Source: Alistipes sp. | Lineage (GTDB): Bacteria; Bacteroidota; Bacteroidia; Bacteroidales; Rikenellaceae | Assembly (NCBI GenBank): GCA_017629985.1 | Contig: JAGBWD010000007.1 | Span: 1 to 33,722 of the forward strand | Length of the DNA: 33,722 bases | Direction of reading: 5' to 3' | In this document: positions 24,030-28,314 of the stretch, in pieces | How the letters are laid out: each line of letters starts with the position of its first letter | How positions within the stretch are numbered: the stretch's first letter is position 1 | Notes under the pieces: model-generated | The model's database searches: none | Told to the model about the DNA's origin: nothing | What the model saw: the letters and a program-made list of their open reading frames with translations, nothing else | Position numbers and translations under genes: made by a program

Positions 24030-24102
24030 GCCTCTTTAGCTCAGTTGGTAGAGCACGACACTCTTAATGTTGGGGTCCAGGGTTCGAGCCCCTGAGGGGG
24101 TA
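24030..24102 (+). tRNA. tRNA-Lys, anticodon CTT
   Basis: A 73-nt cloverleaf without encoded CCA. The acceptor GCCTCTT pairs with AGGGGGT (three G-T pairs). D arm AGCTCAGTTGGTAGAGC, anticodon stem CGACA/TGTTG with loop CTCTTAA (anticodon CTT) and T arm CAGGG-TTCGAGC-CCCTG are all present. No other tRNA follows. Its last 14 bases are repeated at 26745-26758, so the 3' end has served as an integration target. Confidence 0.96.
24089..24102 (+). repeat. Left attachment-site copy (attL-like) in the tRNA 3' end
   Basis: CCCCTGAGGGGGTA, the end of the T arm and acceptor stem, is identical to 26745-26758. It restores a functional tRNA 3' end. Confidence 0.75.
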
Positions 24103-24105
24103 CAG

Positions 24106-24137
24106 AGAAGACAATCGAAAGGTTGTCTTCTTTTTTT
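24106..24137 (+). terminator. Terminator of tRNA-Lys
   Basis: AGAAGACAA and TTGTCTTCT form a 9-bp stem with an 8-nt loop, followed by a T run. By the island model it was brought in with the element. Confidence 0.9.
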
Positions 24138-24206
24138 GTATAAATACGCTTGGTTTGGCAGTGTTCCGTGGTGTAATTAGGGAAAATCAAACCTCTCCAC
24201 AACATT

Positions 24207-24247
24207 TGTTGAACCTATGCTGAACCAAAAGAAAATTTGCGTGAACC
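24207..24247 (+). repeat. Phased TGAACC repeats inside the left end of the island
   Basis: TGAACC occurs at 24210, 24221 and 24242, steps of 11 and 21 bp, so all three lie on about the same DNA face. The first sits in the 12-mer TGTTGAACCTAT, which recurs exactly at 26678-26689 near the right end. The pattern fits arm-type recombinase binding sites; no protein evidence exists. Confidence 0.5.
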
Positions 24248-24279
24248 AAAATTTGTATGTTTGGCAGATGTTCGTATTT

Positions 24280-24299
24280 ATATTTTTTGTAACTTTACA
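24280..24299 (+). promoter_or_regulatory. Probable promoter of the R-M genes
   Basis: The 20-mer ATATTTTTTGTAACTTTACA contains TAACTTTA, a one-base variant of the TAnnTTTG -7 box. It ends 21 bp before the methyltransferase ATG. The identical 20-mer occurs at 28395-28414 before the 34-codon ORF. No TTG is at the correct -33 distance. Confidence 0.45.
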
Positions 24300-24320
24300 A
24301 CAGAAAATTGCGAATTGGCG

Positions 24321-25868
24321 ATGTCAAAAGCGAAAAATAAATATGGTCAATATTTCACCATAAAATCAATTGCGGATTTTATGGTGAAACTTATTGATAA
24401 AAGTACACAAGCAAAAATCCTTGAACCCTCCTGTGGAGAAGGTGTATTCTTAAGCAGTTTAGAGGAAGCTGGATATAGTAATTTATCGGCTTACGAAATT
24501 GATTCTACATTAAAGAATCCATACAAGTATGTAAAGTATGAAAGTTTTGTATCATCACCTACAAATGAGAAATTTGATGTCGTGATTGGTAATCCCCCAT
24601 ACATACGATGGAAGAATTTAGAAGAGGAGCTAAAAAAAGAATTGAAGACATCCCCTATTTGGCAACGATATTTCAATAGTTTATGCGATTATCTTTTTAT
24701 CTTTATACTCAAAAGTATCGAACAACTTAATGAAGGTGGCGAGCTGATATTTATTTGCCCGGAATATTGGATGAATACGACACATTCTCGAACATTGCGA
24801 GATTATATGCTTGAGAATGGTTCTATTACGGATATGTACATATTTAAAGAAGTTCCCTTATTTGAAGGTGTCACATCTTCATATGTCATATTTAAGTATG
24901 TGAAATCTCTTAAATCAGAACAAATTTCGCTGTATAAGTATACAAAAAAGGGGAAGCCCACAAAAGATGATTTAGAGCATGGAACTTGCTTTAAAAAGCA
25001 AATCATCCAGCAATTTAAAATAGGAGAAAGATGGATTCTTGCAGGAGCAGAAGAAAGAAGTTCTATTGTCTCCTTGGAAAAGGCCTGTAAAAAACCAACA
25101 TCGTTATTGTTTGATTTGGGTGCCAATATGTATAGAATTGGAGATTTCTGCGATATTGGCAATGGTATGGTTTCTGGGTTAGATAGAGCATTTTGCGTAG
25201 ATGATACATGTAATCTAACCGAGGATGAAAGATCTGCACTTATACATGTATATAAAGCTAAAGATTTACAGCAATATTACAATATCTCTGATAGCTATTA
25301 TTTTTTTCTGCAAGATAATATTAGTGAATGTGTATTTAGAGAACGATACCCTAATATATACGCAAAGTTGCAACCATTTAGAGAAGAATTATCGAAGAGA
25401 TATAGTTACGGAAAAAACTTACCAATATGGGAGTTCGCATTTCCACGCAATGAGGCTCTGTTTAGAAGAAAGCAGGAGAGAATTTTTGTGCCTTGCAAAG
25501 AGCGCATTTCTCACAAACAATATTTTAGATTTGCAATAGCAGGTTCTACAACTTTTCCTTTGCAAGATGTAACAGCTATCTTAAAAAAACAGTGTTGTAA
25601 AGAGAACATCTACTACATATTGGCATATTTGAATAGTAGCCGAGTTTTTGATTGGCTTAAATATAACGGCATTGTAAAGGGTGAAATAGTAGAATTTTCA
25701 GAAACCCCTCTTGCGAGTATTCCGTATAGGTGCATAAATTGGGATGATGAGCATGAGGTTAGATGCCATGACAATATAGTTAAGTATACACAGCAATATG
25801 TTAATACAAAAGATATTCAAAATCTTTATTCAATAGAAGCAAACCTTAACACATTATTTTATGAGTAA
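24321..25868 (+). CDS. hincIIM: Type II N6-adenine DNA methyltransferase, HincII-type partner
   Basis: Protects host DNA by methylating adenine in the target site of the neighbouring nuclease; 515 aa from the ATG at 24321. The order of motifs is that of gamma-class enzymes: motif X YGQYFT (8-13), motif I ILEPSCGEGVFL (33-44) for AdoMet, motif IV GNPPYIRW (90-97) for catalysis, then a target-recognition domain over the C-terminal half. The frame is open to a TTG at 24237, but that part contains the promoter-like box, so the ATG is preferred. The length is close to that of M.HincII (about 500 aa). The stop overlaps the nuclease start by 8 bp. The methyltransferase comes first, and there is no controller gene. 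Confidence 0.9.
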   Translation: MSKAKNKYGQYFTIKSIADFMVKLIDKSTQAKILEPSCGEGVFLSSLEEAGYSNLSAYEIDSTLKNPYKYVKYESFVSSPTNEKFDVVIGNPPYIRWKNLEEELKKELKTSPIWQRYFNSLCDYLFIFILKSIEQLNEGGELIFICPEYWMNTTHSRTLRDYMLENGSITDMYIFKEVPLFEGVTSSYVIFKYVKSLKSEQISLYKYTKKGKPTKDDLEHGTCFKKQIIQQFKIGERWILAGAEERSSIVSLEKACKKPTSLLFDLGANMYRIGDFCDIGNGMVSGLDRAFCVDDTCNLTEDERSALIHVYKAKDLQQYYNISDSYYFFLQDNISECVFRERYPNIYAKLQPFREELSKRYSYGKNLPIWEFAFPRNEALFRRKQERIFVPCKERISHKQYFRFAIAGSTTFPLQDVTAILKKQCCKENIYYILAYLNSSRVFDWLKYNGIVKGEIVEFSETPLASIPYRCINWDDEHEVRCHDNIVKYTQQYVNTKDIQNLYSIEANLNTLFYE

Positions 25869-26643
25869 TATCAATTATACTAACCTATTAACCTGGTTAA
25901 AAGATAAAGAGGTCGATCGCCCAAATGCAGCAGACAAAGGAACTTTATCAGGCCATGCTGCGGGAGAACCGTTTGAGAAACTAGTGTATCATCATTTAAA
26001 AGAGCTATTTCCGAACAATGTATATAAGCAGTATGAATTTTTAAATGATTTATACCGTCGAAACCCTGCTAGTATTACTATTAAAGACAGGCAATTGCTT
26101 TTTGACTCCCCCGTTGCTTTATTCTTGCTGAGTAGAGGTGATACAGCAACAAGAGATTGGGATCTTCAGAATGTTTTTGAGGAAAAGCAGAATGATACTG
26201 CGGATATATTGTTTCATAAAGATGGATACTTCGAGTTAATTGATGTAAAGACAAGAAATATGTCAAAGTCAGCTCAAGCTCCTAATATTATATCTGCTTA
26301 TAAAGTAGCTCAAATGTGTGCTATTATTCTTGATAATGAAGATTTTGACACTGTTAGCATCAACTATATAGAAGTGGATTGGAATCCATCTGGCGATAAG
26401 TTGATTTGCGCGCAGGCTCATTATGGAGATTTGTTTAAAGCAACCCCTAGTAAATTGTATATCAATTGGGCTGCGGCTATGCAAATACAGTTTCATGTAT
26501 CCGAATTAGACCAGACATATTCTGGAACCTTGCAGGAATGGGCAAAAGCATATTTAAAAATGTTTGTTGCTAGTGCTGAACATAGATGCAAGATCATGTA
26601 CACAAAGTATGTGGAGCCATTCAAGAAATATGTAGTAGAATGA
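25861..26643 (+). CDS. hincIIR: HincII-like type II restriction endonuclease
   Basis: Cleaves unmodified DNA, probably at GTYRAC; 260 aa against 258 for HincII. From memory of HincII the match is strong and collinear: GTLSGHAAGEPFEKLVY (27-43), FEEKQNDTADILF (106-118), ELIDVKTRN (125-133), SKSAQAPNIISAYK (135-148) and LYINWAAAMQIQFHV are the same or nearly so. The catalytic triad of HincII (Asp114, Asp127, Lys129) maps to Asp115, Asp128 and Lys130, all present, so the enzyme should be active. Translation is coupled to the methyltransferase by an 8-bp overlap. The gene is AT-rich relative to the chromosome around it. Cut-site identity is inferred from similarity and should hold unless the DNA-contact residues differ. 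Confidence 0.93.
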   Translation: MSNINYTNLLTWLKDKEVDRPNAADKGTLSGHAAGEPFEKLVYHHLKELFPNNVYKQYEFLNDLYRRNPASITIKDRQLLFDSPVALFLLSRGDTATRDWDLQNVFEEKQNDTADILFHKDGYFELIDVKTRNMSKSAQAPNIISAYKVAQMCAIILDNEDFDTVSINYIEVDWNPSGDKLICAQAHYGDLFKATPSKLYINWAAAMQIQFHVSELDQTYSGTLQEWAKAYLKMFVASAEHRCKIMYTKYVEPFKKYVVE

Positions 26644-26677
26644 CCTATCCGCCTATTGCGACAAAATGCGACAAAAG

Positions 26678-26689
26678 TGTTGAACCTAT
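26678..26689 (+). repeat. Right-end copy of TGTTGAACCTAT
   Basis: Exact copy of the 12-mer at 24207-24218, lying 56 bp inside the right attachment repeat. It has one TGAACC core against three at the left end. Confidence 0.5.
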
Positions 26690-26744
26690 AAAAACCAAAG
26701 TTGCGAAATAGGCGTTACAGGTGCATAATACCAAATATGTTATA

Positions 26745-26758
26745 CCCCTGAGGGGGTA
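26745..26758 (+). repeat. Right attachment-site copy (attR-like)
   Basis: CCCCTGAGGGGGTA is identical to the tRNA-Lys 3' end. It is not part of a tRNA: nothing upstream forms the other arms. Confidence 0.75.
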
Positions 26759-26763
26759 TAGAA

Positions 26764-26792
26764 GAGAAGAACGAGAGTTCTTCTCTTTTTTT
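26764..26792 (+). terminator. Terminator after the right attachment site
   Basis: GAGAAGAAC and GTTCTTCTC form a 9-bp stem with loop GAGA, then a T run. By the island model it was the original tRNA-Lys terminator; it now ends the R-M transcript. Confidence 0.88.
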
Positions 26793-26850
26793 GTGCCTAC
26801 TCGGCTCGAACCCTGGGTGCGCCTCCCTTCTAGGGAGGATGGGAGTGTGT
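26791..26850. repeat. 60-bp intergenic repeat, copy 1
   Basis: It matches 28255-28314 at 51 of 60 positions. Its core is CTCGGC...GGGTGCGCCTCCC-N4-AGGGAGGATGGGAG with a CCTCCC/GGGAGG stem. It begins in the T tract of a terminator. The rest of 26851-27028 shows no gene and no structure I can name. Confidence 0.7.
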
Positions 26851-27028
26851 AAACAAACGAGCACAGATACTGCACCCCAAGGGTAATTACCGCTTGCGCC
26901 CCATAGAAACCTATCGCGAATATAATATGTAGTGTTGAATAAGCGGACGATGGCTGCTCCAAACGGGGTGGCTAATTTTGTGTGATTTGAATAAATACTC
27001 TATTCGCATCAAAATATGATTAGAATAG

Positions 27029-28256: not shown

Positions 28257-28314
28257 GTGTCTACTCGGCGGGAGCCCCGGGTGCGCCTCCCAACCAGGGA
28301 GGATGGGAGGGTGT
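28255..28314. repeat. 60-bp intergenic repeat, copy 2
   Basis: Second copy of the element at 26791-26850, 51 of 60 positions the same, same orientation, again starting in the T tract of a terminator. The differences fall mainly in the loop between the CCTCCC and GGGAGG arms and in a short stretch before GGGTGCGCC. Confidence 0.7.

Follow-up and report, generated by a model that had tools for sequence, protein, structure and literature searches.

How small type II restriction-modification (R-M) systems without mobility genes spread between species is a long-standing question, and it is raised by a locus of an Alistipes sp. genome in which two R-M genes lie behind a tRNA-Lys(CTT) gene, between two copies of the tRNA 3' end. 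The locus is in contig C38 (JAGBWD010000007.1) of a 1.76-Mb draft genome in 38 contigs; this contig of 33,722 bp was analyzed whole and is called the window below. Numbers preceded by G and L are our handles for genomes and loci. As judged from sequence comparison, the two genes probably belong to a family of non-autonomous integrative cassettes that is moved in trans by the tyrosine recombinase of another element. This reading is supported by conserved ends around unrelated cargo, the lack of a recombinase inside, changes of site and genus, and the presence of integrases at the same tRNA; from these we infer the class of recombinase, its supply in trans, a circular form and a route of transfer from cell to cell.

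An earlier note, made from the letters of the window alone, had described an island bordered on each side by a 14-bp copy of the tRNA 3' end with its own terminator. Both copies of CCCCTGAGGGGGTA are exact and no further one was found in a search allowing one mismatch; over 100 shuffles the mean number of copies was 0.01, and two copies were reached in 0/100. The two copies and the hairpins behind them are 75% identical over 48 nt. As for the terminators, the left one is listed by the terminator scan but the right one was seen by eye only. The conserved left end extends back through its terminator to the core in many relatives, and a hairpin like the right-hand one stands straight behind tRNA-Lys in some of them (e.g. 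L010, L020). ARAGORN detected no second tRNA in the window. The two genes overlap, as the note had it, by 8 bp and, being adjacent, have the gene arrangement of a type II R-M system; the PF09226 match of the endonuclease (377 bits) is full-length (profile 5-247 of 247) and above the curated cut-off, which places the protein in the HincII family. The distinct base and codon usage also held: GC content between the repeats is 0.345, compared to 0.484 in the 24 kb leftward and 0.457 in the 6.6 kb rightward, and GC at third codon positions is 0.28 and 0.31 in the R-M genes, compared to 0.41-0.64 in 17 other genes of the window.

As had been claimed, no recombinase lies between the cores, and the four Phage_integrase matches of the genome are all on other contigs. 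No transfer gene was seen between the cores among open reading frames (ORFs) of at least 80 aa, using translations and Pfam, conjugation genes not having been searched by profile. The unit consequently lacks the recombinase of its own that characterizes integrative and mobilizable elements (IMEs), integrase-bearing islands and tycheposons, and has the anatomy of a cis-mobilizable element (CIME), with att cores on both sides and recombination and transfer genes absent. Miniature inverted-repeat transposable elements (MITEs) are short, free of protein genes and bounded by terminal inverted repeats; the unit is 2.6 kb long with two genes, and no inverted-repeat pair at its two ends was present among the 25 of 52 inverted repeats listed.

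Features of the R-M cassette and its borders in the window
Feature	Position	Strand	Evidence
tRNA-Lys(CTT), intact, attachment target	24030..24103	+	ARAGORN
Left core (attL), 14 bp CCCCTGAGGGGGTA, tRNA 3' end	24089..24102	+	exact repeat search
Terminator hairpin 3' of tRNA, cassette left end	24104..24140	+	terminator scan gives 24104-24133
Conserved left end (LE-B)	24138..24300	+	genus genome search; nhmmer profile
Three GAACC(T/A)A-type direct repeats	24207-24218 (TGTTGAACCTAT), 24222-24230, 24243-24251 (span 24207..24251)	+	sequence
N6-adenine DNA methyltransferase (Eco57I/N6_Mtase)	24321..25868	+	Pfam Eco57I 78.9 bits; PADLOC PDLC03248 594 bits
HincII-family type II restriction endonuclease	25861..26643	+	PF09226 377 bits; PDLC03489 350 bits
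Conserved right end (RE-B)	26644..26758	+	genus genome search; nhmmer profile
Two TGCGACAAAA repeats within RE-B	26657-26666, 26667-26676	+	
TGTTGAACCTAT copy within RE-B	26678-26689	+	12-bp repeat common to left end
Right core (attR), second 14-bp copy of CCCCTGAGGGGGTA	26745..26758	+	exact repeat search
Right-hand hairpin with T run	26760..26792 (approx.)	+	spotted by eye; not listed by terminator scan
60-bp repeat, start of 155-bp mini-unit, outside R-M cassette	26808..26865	+	

The earlier note had treated the unit as a single locus. The island at the tRNA stood but its one-off status did not, since a family of cassettes with conserved ends was found. Segments 24138-24300 (left) and 26644-26764 (right) were used as queries against 180 genomes of the genus, one per species, and matched in 19 and 17 of them, respectively, the present genome included in both cases; four of the 19 left-end matches are 21-37 nt long at E about 5e-4 and may be due to chance. 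A query of the joined ends matched 30 of 268 genomes of the family, weak matches counted, and these were confined to 2 of 22 genera. Fourteen cassettes of about 0.7-3.4 kb, from 13 genomes of two genera, could be delimited with both ends (the window, L207 to L214, L222, L223, L145, L146 and L291); loci with one end at a contig break (e.g. L144, L215-L218, L225) or with a right end only (L219-L221, L156, L224) were left out of the count. The recurring ends measure ~165 bp on the left and ~115 bp on the right, with L223 retaining only portions of both, L209 being devoid of the outermost left end, and L146 and L222 carrying one diverged end each.

R-M genes are present in 12 of the 14 cassettes, as judged from Pfam or from DNA identity to a scanned cassette, and are of eight kinds: HincII, HaeIII, DpnII, MjaI, MvaI/BcnI, ICEA, type IIG and other. 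According to Pfam, the HincII endonuclease and methyltransferase of the window are replaced by HaeIII and a C5 methyltransferase in L207, by ICEA and two methyltransferases in L209, by an N6/N4 methyltransferase and MjaI in L210, by a methyltransferase and MvaI/BcnI in L212, by DpnII in L214, by a 766-aa N6_Mtase protein with a weak HSDR_N match in L213 and by a 996-aa Eco57I/MmeI-like protein in L222. The cargo of four further cassettes was assigned by DNA identity without a Pfam scan: L211 (92% identical to L209), L291 (91-96% to L210), L146 (91% to L212) and L223 (86-92% to L222 over parts). The remaining two carry two DUF488 proteins and a DuOB protein (L208, Pfam) and a 134-aa protein with no Pfam match (L145). 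No recombinase was found in the 14 cassettes in ORF lists or, for all but L291, with a two-seed phmmer search and a motif pattern.

In the four pairs tested, cassettes of unrelated cargo aligned at the tRNA and the ends only. Identity to the window was 89% over 279 bp and 82% over 181 bp for the HaeIII cassette, 88% over 267 bp and 82% over 147 bp for the cassette of the 766-aa type, and 92% over 123 bp and 86% over 102 bp for the DpnII cassette, which is not at tRNA-Lys. As the same ends carry very different restriction genes, they look like a vehicle in which defence cargo is swapped. The DUF488/DuOB gene set of L208 is a candidate defence operon; in L217, a left end of the family is also followed by a DUF488 gene.

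Within the ends, the GAACC(T/A)A-type repeats are putative arm sites for an integrase. A spaced motif, AACCTAT-N4-AACCAA, is common to the type-B ends and to the left ends (LE-A) of integrase-bearing elements of type A. It was counted at 56 places, overlapping loci being counted repeatedly, with a mean of 0.0 in 5 mononucleotide shuffles and 0 in the 80 HincII loci L046-L125. This count is circular because the pattern was derived from these very ends, and the presence of the motif in the elements carrying INT-A, the integrase described below, is its sole informative part.

The site without a cassette was also analyzed. The junction predicted in the earlier note, in which the right-hand terminator and then the 60-bp repeat come after tRNA-Lys and the core, was joined by script from its parts and compared with 101 loci, of which 80 carry a complete tRNA-Lys. 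It aligned without interruption in 19 of the 101 loci, from 15 genomes, at 79-90% identity. The junction is thereby documented, rather than an allele of the same strain, because these loci are from other species and the 60-bp repeat there often lies within a 155-bp mini-unit. The repeat was thus found where it had been expected, behind the junction, but it belongs to separate mini-units. A second copy of it is present at window positions 28272-28314 (86% over 43 nt), after a hairpin with a T run behind a Fic gene; the first begins just behind the start of a 14-nt stretch (26803-26816) complementary to the T-arm region of the tRNA (24077-24090).

The tRNA-Lys core also receives other elements. 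Besides type B, left ends of types A, C and D (named by eye) occur at this core. Mini-units of two sizes, about 155 bp and about 280 bp, contain no genes and also accumulate there, most of them terminating in the last 20-22 nt of tRNA-Lys. In L127, L140, L149, L215 and L137 they are stacked one to two deep 3' of the tRNA. A reading as tandem tRNA-Lys genes ~155 bp apart, with insertion between two tRNA genes, was rejected because nearly all second copies are these mini-unit ends; two full tRNAs were present only in L025 among the loci examined for tandem copies. INT-A, a tyrosine recombinase with Phage_integrase, SAM_5 and Arm-DNA-bind_5 domains (Pfam of one member), begins about 440 bp past the core in eight genomes (L134, L135, L158, L232-L235, L250), four of these loci being truncated by contig ends. 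INT-A is possibly a prophage integrase; two ORFs past it match only PHROGs of unknown function, and no right end of an INT-A element was seen before the contigs end. Viral contigs gave no confirmed INT-A, and phage and plasmid records gave only relatives of <60% identity. Of three relatives (54-56% identity), two adjoin tRNA-Lys(TTT) and one adjoins tRNA-Arg. An ICEA R-M unit without an integrase, L128 of G071, is likewise bounded by LE-A; its cargo is 84-88% identical to that of a type-B cassette. Separately, a terminator-like GCTCCAAACGGGG hairpin at window positions 26951-26974, which resembles one just 3' of the integrase gene in L233, is possibly the scar of an earlier integrase-bearing element. 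G104 shares part of the right flank of the window at 96% on another contig, and in its locus L126 (C13, contig end) a C-type end and a 46-aa frame with a match to the integrase C-terminus stand behind tRNA-Lys.

These elements bear on whether the cassettes are CIMEs, i.e. former integrase-bearing elements that have lost integrase and transfer genes and move only in cis, beside a newly integrated element. The anatomy fits the published definition, with att sites kept and recombination and transfer genes gone (PMC5704250, PMC7563491), mini-units of 155 and 280 bp resembling microCIMEs accrete at the same tRNA, and LE-A is a single end type found both with and without an integrase. We nevertheless regard a CIME origin as unlikely, as ten kinds of cargo are found between the same ends, no integrase remnant is found between the ends of the 14 cassettes, and lone cassettes occur away from tRNA-Lys and in another genus.

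The latter cases provide the signs of movement. Firstly, the MjaI cassette L291 of G230, which belongs to the other genus, is identical to that of G164 at 96% over 1418 bp and 91% over 798 bp, and identity ceases at the core; a purA-like gene (named by eye) compared between the two genomes shows 71% identity over 927 of 1284 bp. In G230, tRNA-Lys has a different 3' end (CCCCAGAGGGAGCAC), and both cores of its cassette carry the CCCCAGAGGGAGCAC version. Secondly, 4 of the 14 cassettes (L209, L211, L214, L222) are located in the middle of contigs, and the stretches retrieved around them contain no tRNA-Lys match. The ICEA cassette lies in a tRNA-Lys array in G136 and behind other genes in G105 and G170 (G170 versus G136, 94% over 1680 bp), and the DpnII cassette of G092 is placed in a hairpin behind a rubredoxin-like gene (named by eye). 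Flanking genes are conserved at the G092 and G170 sites and the intergenic parts are diverged. In G170 (L211) the junction is hybrid, the left core being derived from the target and the right core from the cassette, which is the outcome expected of one crossover. The MvaI/BcnI cassette of G059 (L212) was no longer counted as another chromosomal site. No tRNA accompanies it at its position close to a contig end, and since the tRNA-Lys contig of G059 (L141) ends just behind the tRNA, L212 and L141 are possibly one locus. The argument from sites thus rests on the ICEA cassettes.

Cargo might alternatively be replaced by homologous recombination, in which case the tRNA and conserved ends would act as homology arms only, for swapping imported DNA, with no need for a site-specific step at present. 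Exchange within the ends does appear to take place: left ends of both type A and type B accompany the ICEA system, and in L220 (G031:C148) a DUF2442/HTH gene is flanked by a 50-nt match to an A-type left end and by a right end of type B. As an explanation of the cassettes homologous recombination is improbable, because core-like sites at the ends of other genes and a genus with a different tRNA core require new insertion. A gene similar to the DUF2442/HTH gene of L220 precedes the MvaI/BcnI cassette in L212.

It is still harder to see the unit as a self-mobile R-M system that duplicates its target, as proposed for some R-M systems elsewhere (PMC3874152). The target-derived cores on both sides in G230 and G092 do resemble a target duplication of 13-15 bp, but the ends are common to unrelated R-M families and to non-R-M cargo, which makes R-M enzymes unlikely as the mobilizing factor; moreover, the G170 junction is hybrid and one tRNA is the main target. 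Finally, that the repeat arose by chance or is an assembly artefact of metagenome-assembled genomes is barely credible: contigs of many relatives do break just behind this tRNA, but the repeat is expected 0.01 times, the same architecture recurs in independent assemblies, and the gene pair behind tRNA-Lys is also present in L046, on a 453-kb contig.

L046 is the second HincII locus. A third sign of movement is patchy occurrence, HincII having been found in 2 of the 180 genus genomes, in both with the gene pair behind tRNA-Lys(CTT). L046 is 76% identical to the window along 2644 bp that begin with the tRNA and end with the HincII stop. The idea that HincII systems generally lie near tRNAs was rejected, a tRNA being within 4 kb in 8 of 80 HincII loci.

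Several observations weigh against integrative cassettes moved in trans. L046 is only partly like the other loci, as its left end is only weakly matched (13.7 bits) and it has neither a right-end match nor an exact second core. In G230 (L291, tRNA) and G092 (L214, terminator), the cores on either side agree with the local target. This is not the outcome expected of one crossover with a fixed attP (the attachment site of the circle); it would fit a target duplication, or an attP already carrying that core. With the joined flanks of the G092 and G170 insertions, searched in 180 genomes each, no continuous empty site was found among the matches listed. The earlier note had proposed a passenger unit moved by a helper integrase: an integrase-less unit at the tRNA 3' end and comparative signs of movement were found, but no helper with these ends. 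In particular, no element with both type-B ends and an integrase was found in the 180 genus and 268 family genomes, and INT-A gave no match in the present genome at E <= 1e-20. An exact search of viral contigs with three end patterns gave no match, nor did the left end against phage records or the right end against plasmid records, the only such pairings tried.

Combined, the results are best accommodated by a trans-mobilized cassette consisting of a core, a left end (terminator and putative arm-type sites), exchangeable R-M cargo, a right end and a second core. A tyrosine recombinase from another element would recognize the ends through core and arm repeats and excise the cassette as a circle, whose attP would comprise the right end, the core and the left end. 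Insertion of the circle would follow, either into the 3' end of tRNA-Lys(CTT) or into another site resembling the core; the tRNA is left intact, since its last 14 bp are supplied again by the core. A more specific version is offered tentatively: in Alistipes-like gut bacteria, the ends may be a dedicated R-M vehicle, integron-like and integron-independent, repeatedly reloaded with type II R-M systems and mobilized in trans by the integrases of resident phages or islands, which use the tRNA-Lys site as well, adopting the core of each target.

The spread of small R-M systems is made testable here, as the ends are defined, natural cargos are many, and candidate helper integrases are present at the same tRNA. 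It is suggested that prophages or their kin may spread genes restricting other phages. With the ends as queries, more defence genes might be located; one candidate is the DUF488/DuOB cargo.

Helper-dependent elements (CIMEs, microCIMEs, MITEs and clusters of attC sites lacking integron integrases, CALINs) and R-M systems on mobile elements are known already (PMC11389934, PMC5704250, PMC3874152, PMC7563491). An integrase-less R-M cassette family with conserved ends was not met in the literature searched, which mostly excludes subscription papers, and conserved ends with swapped restriction cargo are therefore taken as new. The nearest likeness is to CIMEs and microCIMEs, which likewise are bounded by att cores, are devoid of integrase and transfer genes and build up tandem arrays at a single site; this site is tRNA-Lys CTT in Streptococcus agalactiae (PMC7563491), and microCIMEs of 130-220 bp resemble the 155-bp mini-units (PMC5704250, PMC7563491). 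CIMEs are, however, described as decayed integrative and conjugative elements or IMEs that transfer only in cis, whereas here a conserved end pair carries many unrelated, mostly R-M cargos, also off the tRNA and across genera. MITEs and CALINs likewise receive their enzyme in trans (PMC11389934), as the cassettes presumably do; MITEs use transposases and have no protein genes, and in CALINs arrays of cassettes are mobilized by an integron integrase, whereas the ends described here look like phage-type attachment sites. Tycheposons and phage satellites are also tRNA-bounded cargo elements, and satellites rely on helpers, but tycheposon islands are described as including a tyrosine recombinase gene (PMC11389934, PMC10872708) and none was found in the cassettes. 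The R-M units inserting with target duplication (Furuta and Kobayashi, as cited in PMC3874152) share with them a lone R-M unit acting as a mobile unit; in the cassettes, the conserved parts are the ends and not the R-M genes.

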